From an uncultured Alphaproteobacteria bacterium (GTDB lineage Bacteria > Pseudomonadota > Alphaproteobacteria > HIMB59 > GCA-002718135), in assembly GCA_902612825.1 (NCBI GenBank), contig CACMET010000007.1:1-64000 (forward strand): a DNA stretch of 64,000 bases, given 5' to 3'. The position numbers were made by a program, and so were the translations under genes. The notes beneath the pieces were generated by a model. The model ran no database searches and had not been told where the DNA came from. It saw only the letters and a program-made list of their open reading frames with translations. Shown piece by piece: positions 10,253 through 59,935 of the stretch (position 1 is the stretch's first letter; each line of letters opens with the position of its first letter).

Positions 10253-10319
10253 TTTTTAAATTAACTTTTGACTATTTGTTTTCATGCAGTTATTCAAGCT
10301 TCATTACAAAATATATATT

Positions 10320-11408
10320 ATGAATGACACATCTCAAAGTTTCGTTAAATTTGAAAAGATCGATAAAAGTTATGATGGTGAAGTACTAGTAGTAAAAAAC
10401 TTAAACTTGGATATTGCTAAGGGTGAGTTTGTAACAATGTTGGGTCCATCAGGATCAGGTAAAACAACAACTTTGATGATGTTAGCTGGTTTTGAAACAC
10501 CTACAAACGGTGAAATATTTTTAGATACTAAACCAATTAGTAAAATACCTCCCTATGAAAGAGAAATAGGAATGGTATTTCAAAACTATGCTTTATTTCC
10601 TCACATGACTGTTGCGGAAAATTTGTCATTTCCGCTAGAAGTGAGAAAAATTTCAAAACCAGACATTAAAGAAAAAGTGCAGAAAGCACTTGATATGGTT
10701 GAGTTAGGTAATTTTGGTACAAGATTTCCAGCTCAATTATCTGGTGGACAACAGCAAAGAGTCGCTTTGGCTAGAGCACTGGTATTTGAACCACGTCTAG
10801 TATTAATGGATGAGCCTTTAGGTGCGCTCGATAAGAATTTACGTGAACAGATGCAATACGAAATAAAACATATTCATGATAGGATTGGCATAACAGTTGT
10901 CTATGTTACTCATGATCAAAGTGAAGCATTAACAATGTCTAATAGAATTGCAGTATTCAATGATGGAGTTGTACAACAATTATCTACACCTGATATCTTG
11001 TATGAAAAACCTGAAAATTCTTTTGTTGCAAAATTTATAGGTGAAAATAATACACTTAATGGTGTTGTTAGGGAGGTGAATGGATCCTCATGTACTGTTG
11101 AGTTAGATGGTGGATTTGGAATGGTTAAAGCGTTAAAAATTAATGTGAATGAAGTTGGAGAGAAAACTCAACTATCTATAAGACCAGAACGTGTCTCAAT
11201 AGACAACTCAATATCTGACTCCAACAATTTTTTAGGAAAGATAGAAGAATTGATTTACCTAGGCGACCACATCAGAGCTAGGCTTGATGTTTGTGGAAAT
11301 AATGAATTCATAGTCAAGGTTCCAAATGAAGGAAGTTTTAATCATAAAGAAGGTGATGAACTTAAATTAAGCTGGAATTCTGAGGATGTTCGAGCATTAG
11401 ATCTGTAA
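10320..11408 (+). CDS. Polyamine-type ABC transporter ATPase (PotA-like)
   Basis: This 362-residue ATPase energises the importer encoded downstream. Visible motifs: Walker A GPSGSGKTT, Q-loop VFQNYALFPHMTV, signature LSGGQQQRVALARAL, Walker B LVLMDEPLGALD and the H-loop VYVTHDQ, followed by a C-terminal TOBE-type regulatory region (from about residue 240). ATG 10320 is preferred over ATG 10284, because the earlier start adds a basic hydrophobic 12-residue tail (MQLFKLHYKIYI) atypical of the family; neither has a clear ribosome-binding site. It is followed by a 131-bp gap and then the binding-protein gene with its own leader. Confidence 0.88.
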   Translation: MNDTSQSFVKFEKIDKSYDGEVLVVKNLNLDIAKGEFVTMLGPSGSGKTTTLMMLAGFETPTNGEIFLDTKPISKIPPYEREIGMVFQNYALFPHMTVAENLSFPLEVRKISKPDIKEKVQKALDMVELGNFGTRFPAQLSGGQQQRVALARALVFEPRLVLMDEPLGALDKNLREQMQYEIKHIHDRIGITVVYVTHDQSEALTMSNRIAVFNDGVVQQLSTPDILYEKPENSFVAKFIGENNTLNGVVREVNGSSCTVELDGGFGMVKALKINVNEVGEKTQLSIRPERVSIDNSISDSNNFLGKIEELIYLGDHIRARLDVCGNNEFIVKVPNEGSFNHKEGDELKLSWNSEDVRALDL

Positions 11409-11539
11409 TTATACTTTTTTCTTTGTATTTAGCCAAATTTTTTTACTTTTACCCCTTTTTTTTCATTTAACGACATGTTATTACACGATCATTACGGACA
11501 TAATCTTAAGATTAAATAATTAAAAATAGGAGGATATAT
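11409..11539 (+). promoter_or_regulatory. Leader region with 14-bp palindrome upstream of the PotD-like gene
   Basis: The 131-bp gap between ATPase and binding-protein genes is T-rich. It contains a perfect 14-bp palindrome, TAATCTTAAGATTA, at 11501-11514, and a consensus Shine-Dalgarno AGGAGG at 11528-11533, 6 nt before the ATG. The gap is larger than most in this window, suggesting a separate promoter for the binding-protein gene. I see no convincing -35/-10 pair. The palindrome could be an operator, but short AT-rich palindromes can arise by chance. Confidence 0.35.
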
Positions 11540-12643
11540 ATGTCTAAATTTTTAAAAGCCTTCTTATTTGTGTCACTTGTTTTTGCTCCTTTTGCAGCTA
11601 GCGCTGTAACGGTCGCATCATGGGGTGGTGCTTATACAGAAAGTCAACAAAAAGCTTATGCTGATACATATTCTGATCCTGGCTCAATTGTTTTTGAAAA
11701 CTACAACGGAGGTTTAGGTGAAGTAAGAGCTCAAGTAGAAAGTGGAAGTGTTACTTGGGATTTAGTGGATGTGTTACCATCTGATGCAATCACAGGATGT
11801 GATGAAGGATTATTTGAAGATATCTCAAGTGAAATTGCTTCATTAGGTGTTCCTGGACCTGACGGTGAGTCAATTGCAGAAGATATGGAAAATAATGGTC
11901 TTGAATACCATTCAGGTTGGGACTGTTGTGTACCACAAATCTTTTGGACATACGTCGTATTTTATGATCCAGATGCATTCCCAGGTGAAAAACCAGCTAG
12001 TATGGCAGACTTTTTTGATACAGAAAAATTTCCTGGTAAAAGAGGTATTCATACTTGGGCAACAGGTATAATTGAAAAAGCTATGGTAGCAGATGGAGTA
12101 AGTCCAAATGCAGTTCCAACTGTTTTAGCTAACCAAACAGGTGCTATTGATAGAGCATTTGAAGTTATGGACAGAATTAAGGACGATGTTGTTTTTTGGT
12201 CTGCTGGTTCACAACCACTTGAGTTAGTAAAAAGTGGTGAAGTTGTAATGGCTGTTGCTTATAACGGTCGTGTTGGTGCAGCAAACTTAGCTGAAGGTGA
12301 AAACTTTGAGTACATTTGGGAAGGTCAGGTTCTAGACCAAGAATATCTTTGTCTAACTGCTGGAGCTCCTAATAGAGATGCAGCGATCGACTTTATGATG
12401 CATGCTTCAACTCCTGAAGCACAAGCTGAACAAGCTAAATATATTACATATGGACCAATGAGAGCATCTGGTATTCCAATCATTGAAAACAATGAACCTT
12501 GGGGACCAGGAGGTGTTGATATTATGCCTCACATGCCTAACACACCAGAACGTTTAAAAGTTTCAATCGTAAGTGATCCACAATGGTGGTCAGATTACGG
12601 TGCAGAAATTAATGAGCGTTATGCTGCTTGGATGGGCAACTAA
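11540..12643 (+). CDS. Polyamine-type periplasmic binding protein (PotD-like)
   Basis: This 367-residue extracellular solute-binding protein captures the substrate for the PotABCD-type importer. The first 22 residues form a signal peptide (basic MSKFLK, hydrophobic core, AASA cleavage), followed by VTVASWGGAYTESQQKAY, the classic start of the spermidine/putrescine-binding family. Other family marks are WDLVDVLPSDA, MADFFDTEKFPGKRG and the C-terminal WWSDYGAEINERYAAWMGN. The exact ligand (putrescine, spermidine, or another amine or amino acid) cannot be read from the sequence. It has the strongest ribosome-binding site of its operon and is followed by a terminator-like hairpin. Confidence 0.9.
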   Translation: MSKFLKAFLFVSLVFAPFAASAVTVASWGGAYTESQQKAYADTYSDPGSIVFENYNGGLGEVRAQVESGSVTWDLVDVLPSDAITGCDEGLFEDISSEIASLGVPGPDGESIAEDMENNGLEYHSGWDCCVPQIFWTYVVFYDPDAFPGEKPASMADFFDTEKFPGKRGIHTWATGIIEKAMVADGVSPNAVPTVLANQTGAIDRAFEVMDRIKDDVVFWSAGSQPLELVKSGEVVMAVAYNGRVGAANLAEGENFEYIWEGQVLDQEYLCLTAGAPNRDAAIDFMMHASTPEAQAEQAKYITYGPMRASGIPIIENNEPWGPGGVDIMPHMPNTPERLKVSIVSDPQWWSDYGAEINERYAAWMGN

Positions 12644-12674
12644 GCTTGATTAAATAAATTTTGTAATTTAATCT

Positions 12675-12700
12675 AAAGGCGAGAATTATCTCGCCTTTTT
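12675..12700 (+). terminator. Rho-independent terminator or attenuator after the binding-protein gene
   Basis: AAAGGCGAGA (12675-12684), loop ATTA and TCTCGCCTTT (12689-12698) form a perfect 10-bp stem ending in five Ts. It lies 31 nt after the stop of the PotD-like gene and only a few bases before the permease gene, so partial read-through would give more binding protein than permease. No other promoter is obvious between it and the permease. Confidence 0.85.
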
Positions 12701-12702
12701 AT

Positions 12703-13980
12703 TTGGAGGTTATTATTTCTACAGCCGAATTATTAACAACAGATGGTATTCCACTCAAACAAAGTCTTCGTAAGGCTGAAAGAAGAAATAAACTTCGAGC
12801 TTTTCTTCTAGTTTTTCCTTTATTACTTTTTATTTTTGTCACTTTTGTAATGCCAATTGGAGATATGCTTCTTAGGAGTGTTGACGATAGCCAAATTAAT
12901 TCAGTTTTTCCTAATACTTTTGAAGAATACAAAAAATGGGATAAAGGAACTGACGAACTACCGCCTGAAGAAGTATATAAAAATCTTTTTTTTGAATTAG
13001 CCAATGGAGACAAGAGACAAATAGGTAAAGCCCTAACAAGAATGAATTATGCAAAATCTGGTTGGAAAAGTTTAATAAAAAAAACAACTAGAGAAATTAA
13101 AAAAATCGTAAAAAAAGGCGAAGAACCAAAATCGTATAAAGAAACATTTATTAAAATAAATAAGTTCTGGGCAGATCCAACTTACTGGTACTCATTTAAT
13201 CAAATGGTAAATGACCAATCTTCAATTTATTACTGGAATGCTCTTGATAGAACATTTGATGAAGATGGAGATGTTGTTTTACAAGATGAAAAAAGAAGAA
13301 TGTATATTAAAACCTGGCTTAGGACTTTTAAGGTAAGTATTTATGTAACAATTTTTTGCTTAATTCTTGGCTTCCCGGTTGCTCATCTTTTAGCCAATTT
13401 ACCTTTAAGATACAGTAATCTTCTAATGATTTTTGTATTGCTTCCATTTTGGACCTCTCTACTTGTAAGAACAACAGCATGGATTGTAATGCTTCAACAA
13501 AATGGAGTCATAAATGGTATTTTAGTTTGGTTAGGTATCATAAGCGACGATGGCCGAATACAAATGGTTTATAATGAAGCTGGAACTTTAATTGCGATGA
13601 CTCAAATTTTATTACCATTTATGATTTTACCTTTGTATAGTGTAATGAGAGTAATTCCAAAAAGTCACATGAGAGCCGCCCAAAATTTAGGAGCAAAACC
13701 TGCAACTGCATTTTGGCGAGTTTACTTACCACAGACTATTCCTGGTATAAGCGCTGGTGGTTTATTAGTTTTTGTACTTGCCATTGGGTATTTTATAACA
13801 CCTGAATTAGTTGGTGGAAAAGATGGTAAATTGATTGGGAGTTGGATCGCTTATCATTTAAAAACTACACTTAATTGGGGATTATGCGCTGCTCTTGGCG
13901 CTATACTTCTTGGTATAATGCTGATTTTCTATTGGCTTTACAATAAAATTGTCGGAATAGACAACATAAAGTTAGGATAA
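12703..13980 (+). CDS. Polyamine-type ABC permease 1 (PotB-like)
   Basis: This inner-membrane permease of about 425 residues has the family TM1 (LLVFPLLLFIFVTFVMPIG), then a long insert of about 130 residues as in alphaproteobacterial PotB homologues, then five further helices; the cytoplasmic ATPase-contacting loop reads HMRAAQNLGAKPATAFWRV. The start is unclear. The only standard in-frame start before TM1 is TTG 12703, which lies upstream of the strong GGAGG at 12705-12709. That motif is correctly spaced for ATT at 12715 (5 nt). I give the TTG coordinate, but a non-standard ATT start or a sequencing error is plausible. The partner permease begins 3 nt after the stop. Confidence 0.85.
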   Translation: MEVIISTAELLTTDGIPLKQSLRKAERRNKLRAFLLVFPLLLFIFVTFVMPIGDMLLRSVDDSQINSVFPNTFEEYKKWDKGTDELPPEEVYKNLFFELANGDKRQIGKALTRMNYAKSGWKSLIKKTTREIKKIVKKGEEPKSYKETFIKINKFWADPTYWYSFNQMVNDQSSIYYWNALDRTFDEDGDVVLQDEKRRMYIKTWLRTFKVSIYVTIFCLILGFPVAHLLANLPLRYSNLLMIFVLLPFWTSLLVRTTAWIVMLQQNGVINGILVWLGIISDDGRIQMVYNEAGTLIAMTQILLPFMILPLYSVMRVIPKSHMRAAQNLGAKPATAFWRVYLPQTIPGISAGGLLVFVLAIGYFITPELVGGKDGKLIGSWIAYHLKTTLNWGLCAALGAILLGIMLIFYWLYNKIVGIDNIKLG

Positions 13981-13983
13981 AAA

Positions 13984-14880
13984 ATGGCTCTTCCAAGTTA
14001 CGCAACACCAGTTCAAAGAACCTACTATTATTTTTACTTATTTTTTTGTACGGTAGTTTTCTTTTTTTTAATAGCGCCACTATTTGCAATTATTCCAATA
14101 TCCTTCAGTGTTTCGCCTTTTATGGTCTTTACCGAAGGAATGCTTGCATGGCCTCCTGATCCAGAAGCATGGTCGATTAGGTGGTATAGAAATATGATTG
14201 GTGATTGTAGTGCTGATGTTGTTTCCTCCACAGTTCCTTGTTCAACAAAATGGATGAAAGGCACAGTAAATAGTTTTTACATTGGTACTATAGCAACTGT
14301 TATTGCAACTACTTTAGGTACTTTAGCAGCATTGGGTTTAAGTAGGCCTCATATGCCATATAAGGGCTTGATAATGGCAATCTTAATATCACCAATGATT
14401 GTTCCATTAATTATAACAGCTGCAGGTATGTTTTTCTTTTATGCAAGAATAAATCTTGTTTATACATTTACCGGAGTAATTCTTGCACATGTTGCTCTTG
14501 CCACACCTTTTGTAGTTATAACCGTAACAGCAACATTAGTTGGTTTTGATATGAATATGGTAAAAGCAGCACAAAGCTTGGGTGCCAAACCAATGAGAAC
14601 ATTTTTTAAAGTTATTATGCCGTTGATTTTACCAGGTATTATATCAGGAGCTTTATTTGCTTTTATAACCTCTTTTGACGAAGTTGTTATAGTTATGTTT
14701 ATGGCAAGCATAGATCAGCTTACTATTCCAAAACAAATGTGGGCCGGAATACGACAAGAAATTAGTCCTGTTATTTTATGTATGGCTACTTGTTTGGTAC
14801 TTCTTTCCATATTCTTATTAACTACAGTTGAGCTACTTAGAAGAAGGTCTGAAAAACTCAGAGGTATTAAAGCTCGATAG
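13984..14880 (+). CDS. Polyamine-type ABC permease 2 (PotC-like)
   Basis: This 298-residue inner-membrane permease pairs with the preceding one to form the translocation pore. It has six predicted helices starting with YYYFYLFFCTVVFFFLIAPLFAII, the family PISFS motif straight after TM1, and the conserved cytoplasmic loop MVKAAQSLGAKPMRTFFKV that docks with the ATPase. Length is close to usual PotC/YdcV. Its C-terminus (LRRRSEKLRGIKAR) runs up to 4 nt before the start of the FAD oxidoreductase gene, placing that enzyme in the transport operon. Confidence 0.9.
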   Translation: MALPSYATPVQRTYYYFYLFFCTVVFFFLIAPLFAIIPISFSVSPFMVFTEGMLAWPPDPEAWSIRWYRNMIGDCSADVVSSTVPCSTKWMKGTVNSFYIGTIATVIATTLGTLAALGLSRPHMPYKGLIMAILISPMIVPLIITAAGMFFFYARINLVYTFTGVILAHVALATPFVVITVTATLVGFDMNMVKAAQSLGAKPMRTFFKVIMPLILPGIISGALFAFITSFDEVVIVMFMASIDQLTIPKQMWAGIRQEISPVILCMATCLVLLSIFLLTTVELLRRRSEKLRGIKAR

Positions 14881-58079: not shown

Positions 58080-59150
58080 TTAACTTAGATCTATCCATTC
58101 ATTTTTTTCTGAACTTAAAAAACAACTATCTAAAATTTTTTGAATATCAGCACCTCTTTTGAAATCAGGTTGATCATTTTTACCAGAAATAATTGATGTT
58201 ATAAATCTTTCATAGTTAGAGGGAGTAGGGTCAGTTTTTACAATTTCCCAATCCAAACTTTTTTCATCATTAGGAGAGGTGGCATTTATATCAGTGCATA
58301 TTGAGTAGTAATTTCCCTGAGTTATAGGATCGTCAAATTTCATAGCTACTGCACCTTTGTCACAATATATGTTTAATTCTAATCTATTAACATTACCTGT
58401 TGCAAATCTAGTTGAATTTATTGTTCCTATAGCACCATTATCAAATTCTACCATTGAGATAAAAGAGTCATTAGCATCTAAAACGTATTCATCAATTTTC
58501 TCTCCTTTATCTTTAAAGGTTTTAAGTCGACAATTTATTTTTTTAATATTACCAACTGGATACGATGCAAAATCAAATATATGAACACCAAGATCACCAA
58601 GAACTCCTTTACTGCCATGCTTTTCTGATAATCTCCATAACCATTTTTGTTCCTCTTTCCAATTACCCCAATACTTACATGTTAACCAAGATTGATAATA
58701 ACTAGCATCAACATGTCTGACTTTACCTAATTCATTATTATGCAAAACTTTACTTAAGTTTTGCCAACCAGAGGAATTTCTGTAACTCAGATTAACCATA
58801 TTAATACAGTTTGTATTTGCTGATACTTTGTACATTTCCTCTGCATCTGGATAGTTTTCAGCTAAAGGTTTTTCTGAAAAAATGTGCTTATTTTTATTTA
58901 AAGATTTTAACGCAATTTCTTTGTGAAATGAATCAGGGGTTACATTGCTTATTGCATCAAGTTCACACTTATCAAGCATTTCATCAAAAGATGTGAACGT
59001 TTTATCAATATTATATTCTTTAGCAAAATTTAAGACTCTTTCTTCTATGACATCACAAACTGCAACTATTTCTACATCTTTAATATTTTTAAATGCTGTT
59101 GCATGGGCATTAGCCATCCCTCCAGTACCAACAATTCCTAACTTAATCAT
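58080..59150 (-). CDS. Gfo/Idh/MocA-family oxidoreductase (ThuB-like)
   Basis: This 356-residue protein starts [20 protein letters not shown] (Rossmann motif), has [12 protein letters not shown] for the EKP motif and [16 protein letters not shown] with the active-site Asp/His. It overlaps the thuA-like gene by 4 nt (ATGA). In rhizobia ThuA and the Gfo/Idh protein ThuB together process trehalose and related disaccharides through 3-keto forms; the same pairing here, behind a sugar importer, suggests a similar role. The sugar is unknown. Confidence 0.85.
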
Positions 59151-59933
59151 TTTTTATAATTATGATCTACTTGATAGCCTTTTACTTCAATTGGTTGAAC
59201 AGGATCTTTTCTTTCCATGTTATCAATACCTTTTGCTATTCTGTCTATCCACAAACCAGATGTTTTTTCAGGACAAACCCAATGAATAGAATTTTTAATT
59301 ACTCTTTGAACATCTTTATTATAATAAACAGGATAAGATTCATGTCCTGGTCTGAAATAAAATATTTTTCCATTTCCTCTTTTGTAACAAAGACCAGATC
59401 TAAATACCTCTCCGCCTTCAAACCAACTCACAAAAACTGTTTCATCTGGGGCAGGGACCTGAAAAGGCTCACCATACATTTCGGTCATCTCAATTTCAAA
59501 ATATTCTCCTAAGCCCTCTGCAATAGGATGACCTGGGTTACAAACCCAAACTCTTTCCATTTCACCTCTTTCAGCCCATCTAATATTTGCAGTTGTACCC
59601 ATCATTCGTTTGAAAATTTTAGAATGATGTCCTGAATGTAATACCAGAAGACCCATTCCTTCTAAAACTCTTTGCTGAACTCTATCGACAATTTTATCTT
59701 CAACCAACTTATGAGCTTTATGACCCCACCAAATTAACACATCTGTTTTATCTAATAATTCTTCACTTAAGCCATGATCCTCTTCTTTTAATGTTGCAGT
59801 TTTAATATTAAGACTTTTATCATCAGATAAAAAATTCTTTAATACAACCGTGAATTCCCTTTGGGTAAATTGATTTTACATGTTCATCCTCTTGTTCATG
59901 AACAAATTCATTCCAAATAACTACGTTTACCAT
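59147..59933 (-). pseudogene. thuA: ThuA-family (trehalose utilisation) gene with a frameshift
   Basis: Two frames together encode one complete ThuA-like protein of about 261 residues. The first 36 codons from ATG 59933 (MVNVVIWNEFVHEQEDE ... YPKGIHGC) end at TGA (59823-59825). Dropping one base from the six-base homopolymer at 59829-59834 restores the reading frame, giving [19 protein letters not shown] and then [42 protein letters not shown] and [13 protein letters not shown], all classic ThuA. The downstream part alone could start at GTG 59740 but would lack the N-terminal strand. Frameshift mutation, sequencing/assembly error and programmed slippage are all possible. The ATG lies 2 nt after the permease stop. 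Confidence 0.85.
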
Positions 59934-59935
59934 TG

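Follow-up and report, generated by a model that had tools for sequence, protein, structure and literature searches.

Where translation of the PotB/PotH-like permease gene begins is the question raised by one locus in the window (the whole 64,000-nucleotide stretch of DNA analyzed here). The mechanically called open reading frame (12703-13980, + strand) starts with a TTG (12703-12705) whose G also opens an overlapping Shine-Dalgarno GGAGG (12705-12709), and the codon that stands five nucleotides beyond the GGAGG is an ATT (12715-12717). The preliminary description had proposed that this ATT serves as an AUU initiation codon. We compared the 5' end with its orthologues, and we consider it highly probable, on comparative evidence, that the permease is translated from AUU 12715 by way of the GGAGG and that AUU has been kept as a weak initiation codon, which is the best explanation overall.

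The transporter cluster and the 5' end of the permease gene

The gene belongs to an ABC transporter cluster on the + strand. A PotA-like ABC ATPase gene (10284-11408; TIGR01187 potA, 374.5 bits against a cut-off of 355.6; PF00005, PF08402) is followed by a PotD-like periplasmic binding-protein gene (11540-12643; PF13416, no NCBIfam match), the permease gene (12715-13980, 421 residues counted from the ATT) and a PotC-like ABC permease gene (13984-14880; PF00528), which has an ATG start with a weak AGGA Shine-Dalgarno and begins 3 nucleotides after the stop of the potB-like gene; a FAD oxidoreductase (DAO family) gene comes next. The PotB-like permease matches PF00528 (BPD_transp_1) with 52.1 bits, above the gathering score of 26.4. 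Its best NCBIfam match, PotB (NF007044), scores 171.1 bits, below the cut-off of 348, and PotH (NF007963) scores 156.1 bits, below the cut-off of 489. The protein thus falls outside the PotB equivalog (spermidine/putrescine permease) by the curated NCBIfam cut-off. Both potABCD and potFGHI transporters have been reported for the HIMB59/AEGEAN-169 clade (PMC10308909). Elsewhere in the window, a gene on the - strand (59147-59935), which we label ThuA-like by its look, is seemingly frame-broken, with its N-terminal part in another frame as judged by eye; the break could stem from the assembly or reflect genuine decay.

Inspection of the sequence found the GGAGG, the TTG at 12703 and two ATT codons, at 12712 and 12715, where the preliminary description had placed them, all upstream of the first transmembrane segment (TM1, located by eye). 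Its statement that the TTG is the lone standard in-frame codon before TM1 was borne out, as was the likeness of the GGAGG to the site of the binding-protein gene, whose ATG at 11540 is preceded by GGAGG at 11529-11533. Downstream of the ATT the nearest standard codon lies 45 codons in, within the first hydrophobic stretch, and the same holds for 42 of 76 orthologues. The N-terminal peptide would be STAELLTTDGIPLK for an AUU start (Met removed or formyl-Met kept) and LEVIISTAELL... for a UUG start. A 16S-type tail, GGATCACCTCCTT, occurs once in the genome.

Between the binding-protein and permease genes lies a hairpin (12675-12698, + strand) of 10 pairs with a loop of 4, after which a T-rich run abuts the Shine-Dalgarno; with a G+C-rich stem-loop and a T-run behind it, the hairpin looks like an intrinsic terminator. 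The folding z-score for 12644-12760 is -3.69, and a stem is present at this place in 47 of the 47 distinct upstream stretches folded (that of L004 was too short). The hairpin is probably a partial terminator or a 3' protector of the binding-protein message.

Conservation of the GGAGG and the ATT

We searched for the permease in 101 genus and 110 family genomes and retrieved additional 5' ends. A readable orthologous 5' end came from 73 of the 110 family genomes, many of the others being incomplete; three added loci brought the total to 76, 68 of them distinct over -60 to +240. The sample is uneven, with one genus supplying most rows. Two genomes lacking the 5' end (G002 and G081) and five loci with an ATG-started permease of 52-53% identity (L076-L080) were left out, and the 5' end is also missing from L174 and L181. 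In one genome, G033 (L036/L138), the frame appears to break further downstream; we anchored this 5' end manually and included it in the 76, and kept the gene out of the codon-column, tree and pN/pS analyses. Records of the relatives are marine alphaproteobacterial and comprise isolates with AG- or AH- names, which we take to be single-cell genomes, MarineAlpha5 bins, presumably of HIMB59 type, and one bin labeled Flavobacteriales. The contig from this last bin (L147) bears an alphaproteobacterial permease gene, and its label is probably a binning error. Some isolate names of the AG-/AH- type are called SAGs in one report, which also gives the HIMB59 order two families, f_HIMB59 and f_GCA002718135 (PMC10734472). 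The window most likely belongs to f_GCA002718135, the AEGEAN-169 type; in the 52 genomes of the second family of the order there was no match to the permease at E <= 1e-80.

All 76 orthologues carry the GGAGG, with a spacing of 5 in 74 and of 4 in two, and the codon at this distance is ATT in 74 and ATC in two (L172 and L175). An ATG at 12715 in close relatives had been named beforehand as the observation that would speak against AUU initiation; neither ATG nor GTG nor TTG stands at this place in any of the 76 rows. The anchors were set by the pattern GGAGG..AT[TC], which no row failed, and a protein-anchored alignment made without the pattern gave ATT in 72 of its 73 orthologous rows, all but the frame-broken L036. 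Separately assembled relatives share the ATT, including three metagenome bins (L147, L148 and L178). The site pattern with ATC was found in 2 of 162 genomes of the order.

The ATT differs from ordinary isoleucine codons in how it is kept. In 66 distinct genes (taken from 67 full-length loci without the gene of the window itself) the start column contains 64 ATT and 2 ATC. Twenty-four columns hold isoleucine in at least 90% of rows, and the other 23 all mix ATT, ATA and ATC, with ATT in 6 to 60 of the 66 rows and none invariant. Only 20 columns are invariant in codon, and every one of these is ATG or TGG. The start codon behaves almost like a residue that has a single codon. A further boundary is seen in the substitution ratios of 51 distinct sequences (of 64 gap-free rows, with stop-holding codon pairs left out), in which the start codon is unchanged: pN/pS is 0.128 for codons 2-44 and 1.62 for the four codons upstream of the ATT, the latter a rough value that comes from four codons only with the constrained GGAGG among them. 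As judged from these ratios, protein-coding constraint starts at the ATT. Taken together, the comparison places the start at the ATT and indicates selection on its third base, in support of the AUU initiation first proposed from the window.

The constraint reaches slightly past the start codon, given that codon 2 (12718-12720) is nearly frozen as TCT, which is found in 64 of the 66 distinct ATT rows (64 of them of spacing 5); no other serine codon occurs there, unlike the rest of these genomes, where other serine codons are common. Some of the constraint could accordingly belong to a nucleic-acid element that extends beyond the start codon. Just before the ATT, the 64 distinct spacing-5 sequences all have T or C at -1 and are free to vary at -2 and -3. 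A special role for U at -1 as a helper of AUU was rejected: T also precedes the ATG of the binding-protein gene, in 63 of 66 cases.

The neighboring genes start in the standard way. All 66 readable relatives have an ATG at the binding-protein gene, 64 with GGAGG, and the PotC-like gene has ATG in 67 of 68, G033 being the miss; both counts accept an ATG up to 4 codons from the aligned place. A script that prefers ATG picked starts in 431 genes (377 ATG, 29 TTG and 25 GTG), and GGAGG stood at start spacing before 9 of these, compared with 1 of 431 control places. We found no second gene with the same pattern among 438 script-called genes, taken from the window and from 400 kb of a single relative: this survey, which sees near-cognate starts only where they follow a strong Shine-Dalgarno, gave 23 rows, and the other 22 each list an in-frame ATG, with the GGAGG-type motif internal or far as judged by eye. 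Four of 435 genes had no standard codon near their composition-estimated start and were set aside on inspection by eye as three poor estimates and one broken frame. The gene infC, a candidate for a second AUU start in the family, had matches in 85 of the 110 genomes of the family, 83 of them above the cut-off, and was likewise rejected; it starts with TTG in all 29 readable loci of the 30 fetched (L217-L246), and by eye no Shine-Dalgarno is evident before it in this family.

Outside the AUU group, 25 of 28 class-wide orthologous loci with 50-58% identity have an ATG or GTG in frame 2-6 codons before the aligned place, so the N terminus generally lies in the same neighborhood; the other three, L193, L207 and L211, show no obvious start or one further upstream. 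In the AT-rich loci L190 and L191 of this wider class, a hairpin-like repeat is followed by an ATG without a GGAGG. The same arrangement is seen within the genus itself in L076-L080 (genomes G084, G037, G039, G082 and G008), whose best match is the ATG-started permease of 52-53% identity mentioned above. No AUU version was seen in these five genomes, which are drafts of 57-91% completeness, and this is possibly a case of operon replacement. In these seven loci ATG occurs without GGAGG, whereas AUU accompanies GGAGG.

The upstream TTG and other readings of the site

A start at UUG 12703, with no Shine-Dalgarno upstream of it and with the ATT as an ordinary isoleucine codon, is the reading that standard gene calling implies, and we regard it as highly improbable. 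UUG does serve elsewhere in these genomes, as in the infC loci just described, and an in-frame TTG stands at -12 in 54 of the 76 orthologues, with ATG exactly there in the sister pair L172 and L175; the remaining rows, however, have TGG, AGG, TAG or a frame-shifted TTA. In 19 of the 76 the frame from the nearest upstream stop to the ATT contains no ATG, GTG or TTG, and six of these 19 have an in-frame TAG at -12; in one further orthologue the nearest such codon lies 33 bases before the ATT. Among the 19, L064 has a TTG at codon 6 downstream, and in the other 18 at least 32 codons separate the ATT from the next standard codon. With 19 relatives having neither the TTG nor an upstream replacement, we rejected TTG 12703 as a general start. 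The TTG sits in the T-run right behind the hairpin and shares its G with the GGAGG, and since a T-run followed by GGAGG and a five-base spacing spells TTG at -12, an in-frame TTG there needs no function. A quick tree built from 70 rows, with poor support for 24 of its 53 inner branches, requires at least 8 changes of the -12 state (TTG, ATG or none). The codons from TTG to ATT are also without protein constraint, on the rough ratio of 1.62, and the ATT does not drift as isoleucine codons do. Initiation at an out-of-frame upstream codon followed by a frameshift was rejected as well, with an ATG in any frame within 60 nucleotides upstream in only 4 of 75 rows (L004, with fewer than 60 upstream bases, was not counted), two of these being the in-frame ATG of L172 and L175. 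In the window and the 53 other rows that have it, TTG 12703 could act as a secondary start. A related possibility, less likely than not and still to be taken seriously, is that the start depends on lineage, with AUU used in most, an upstream AUG (or AUC) in L172 and L175, and UUG 12703, in the rows that have it, as a minor additional start. L172 and L175, which form one supported branch adjoining relatives with ATT, have ATG at -12 where TTG stands elsewhere and ATC in place of ATT, as if a new AUG had released the constraint on the ATT, and such a takeover would argue that constraint on the ATT lasts only as long as it serves as the start. In these loci the start may be the upstream ATG. This is a single event in two sister rows, however, and both keep the GGAGG, the spacing and the TCT at codon 2, so that AUC may itself still be the start. 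Lineage-dependent use is in any case compatible with an AUU start in the window.

The invariance of the ATT might instead reflect a DNA or RNA signal, such as a regulator site or a contact with S1 or an sRNA, in place of a start codon. The nearly invariant TCT and the T or C at -1 are what such a signal would leave, but -2 and -3 vary freely, T at -1 is just as usual before the binding-protein ATG, and coding constraint begins after the ATT; under this reading 19 of the 76 genes would also have no start close upstream, and 18 of those would lack one within the following 31 codons as well. We give it a very slight chance. That the ATT results from a sequencing or assembly error, or that the gene has decayed, has a practically negligible probability: the genome of the window is a draft of 43 contigs and 79% completeness, but 74 of 76 relatives, each assembled separately, share the ATT, with full-length open frames and a constrained N-terminal protein sequence. 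The tRNA complement was considered too. The draft genome gave 27 tRNA matches, which ARAGORN assigned to ordinary types, including two tRNA-Met (CAT) and a tRNA-Ile (GAT), and an altered initiator tRNA was rejected on the ordinary tRNAs found in this 79% complete genome.

AUU starts in other bacteria and the possible role in the permease

Few bacterial genes with an AUU start are known, among them infC, pcnB (whose product is poly(A) polymerase), cvfC1 and Borrelia pncA. In E. coli, infC has an AUU start with weak, IF3-sensitive initiation (PMC9410913, PMC5472188), and that of pcnB is reported to limit synthesis (PMC9410913). Both share AUU with the permease; infC is autoregulated whereas the permease is a membrane transport subunit, and pcnB is an unrelated gene. 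The start of infC differs by lineage, with AUU in E. coli and TTG in the family of the permease, and AUU, AUC and AUA starts of infC are reported across E. coli, Streptomyces and Staphylococcus aureus (PMC5472188, PMC13009471). Another case is sigR of Streptomyces, which has a GTC start in 32 of 34 species and GTT in 2 behind a strong conserved ribosome-binding site, had been misannotated to an upstream standard codon, and is repressed by IF3 in experiments, which helps to hold SigR below RsrA (PMC5472188). It resembles the permease in its non-canonical start, strong Shine-Dalgarno and last-base variants in two relatives, and differs in having GTC rather than ATT, in encoding a sigma factor and in an IF3 effect established experimentally, the permease being known from sequence comparison. 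Ribosome profiling and reporters in S. aureus gave near-cognate starts for cvfC1 (AUU) and for ccpN and citZ (AUA), of which cvfC1 and ccpN have strong extended Shine-Dalgarno sequences and are conserved across species (PMC13009471). These two are like the permease in near-cognate start, Shine-Dalgarno and conservation, but the S. aureus products are a small protein, a regulator and citrate synthase, with no transporter among those named. The pncA gene of Borrelia burgdorferi has an AUU start upstream of its database start according to biochemistry and structure (PMC13398362); AUU is common to both genes, and the pncA product is an enzyme. The permease shows what marks a conserved near-cognate start, with no standard codon at the place set by the Shine-Dalgarno and a strong GGAGG. 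A search of titles and abstract openings, with most subscription journals outside its scope, found no AUU-started ABC transporter permease. The AUU start as such is already known from infC, pcnB, cvfC1 and pncA, and its very probable and well-conserved use in a permease, as read from these genomes, adds a new case.

At the proposed start, the GGAGG would pair with the 16S tail and place the AUU in the P site, where the ordinary initiator tRNA-fMet (CAU) would read it with a third-position mismatch, helped by the strong Shine-Dalgarno. AUG is one base change away, yet the lineage keeps AUU, so weak initiation has probably been selected. Discrimination by IF3 against AUU would cap synthesis of the permease below that of the binding protein, which is encoded just upstream by a gene with ATG and GGAGG and would have the larger output. 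The hairpin and T-run would probably act in the same direction, by lowering the downstream message or protecting the upstream one, and together with the weak start would provide many binding proteins per permease, presumably to the benefit of the cell. AUU and AUA starts are reported to yield about 10% of AUG in S. aureus in poor medium (PMC13009471). The suggestion of the preliminary description that AUU limits translation of a subunit needed in low amounts, with the terminator acting alike, is plausible by analogy with these systems, and we infer a candidate role for the AUU start in setting the ratio of permease to binding protein. We also put forward, tentatively and with more doubt than belief, that AUU serves as a translational governor that ties permease output, and with it uptake capacity, to IF3 and initiator tRNA and hence to growth state.

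The permease would add an ABC-transporter case of the AUU start, kept across a marine bacterial family. Gene callers that accept only ATG, GTG and TTG are forced here to the upstream TTG or, where it is absent, mostly to a codon within TM1. The relatives in which a stop codon replaces the TTG are natural replicas of the decisive mutation, and an AUU-started permease makes a simple stoichiometry device directly testable. Streamlined ocean bacteria have few classical regulators. If the governor is real, it would set uptake capacity in such bacteria against a surplus of binding protein, and the weak-start device may recur in other operons of this kind, masked by annotation programs.
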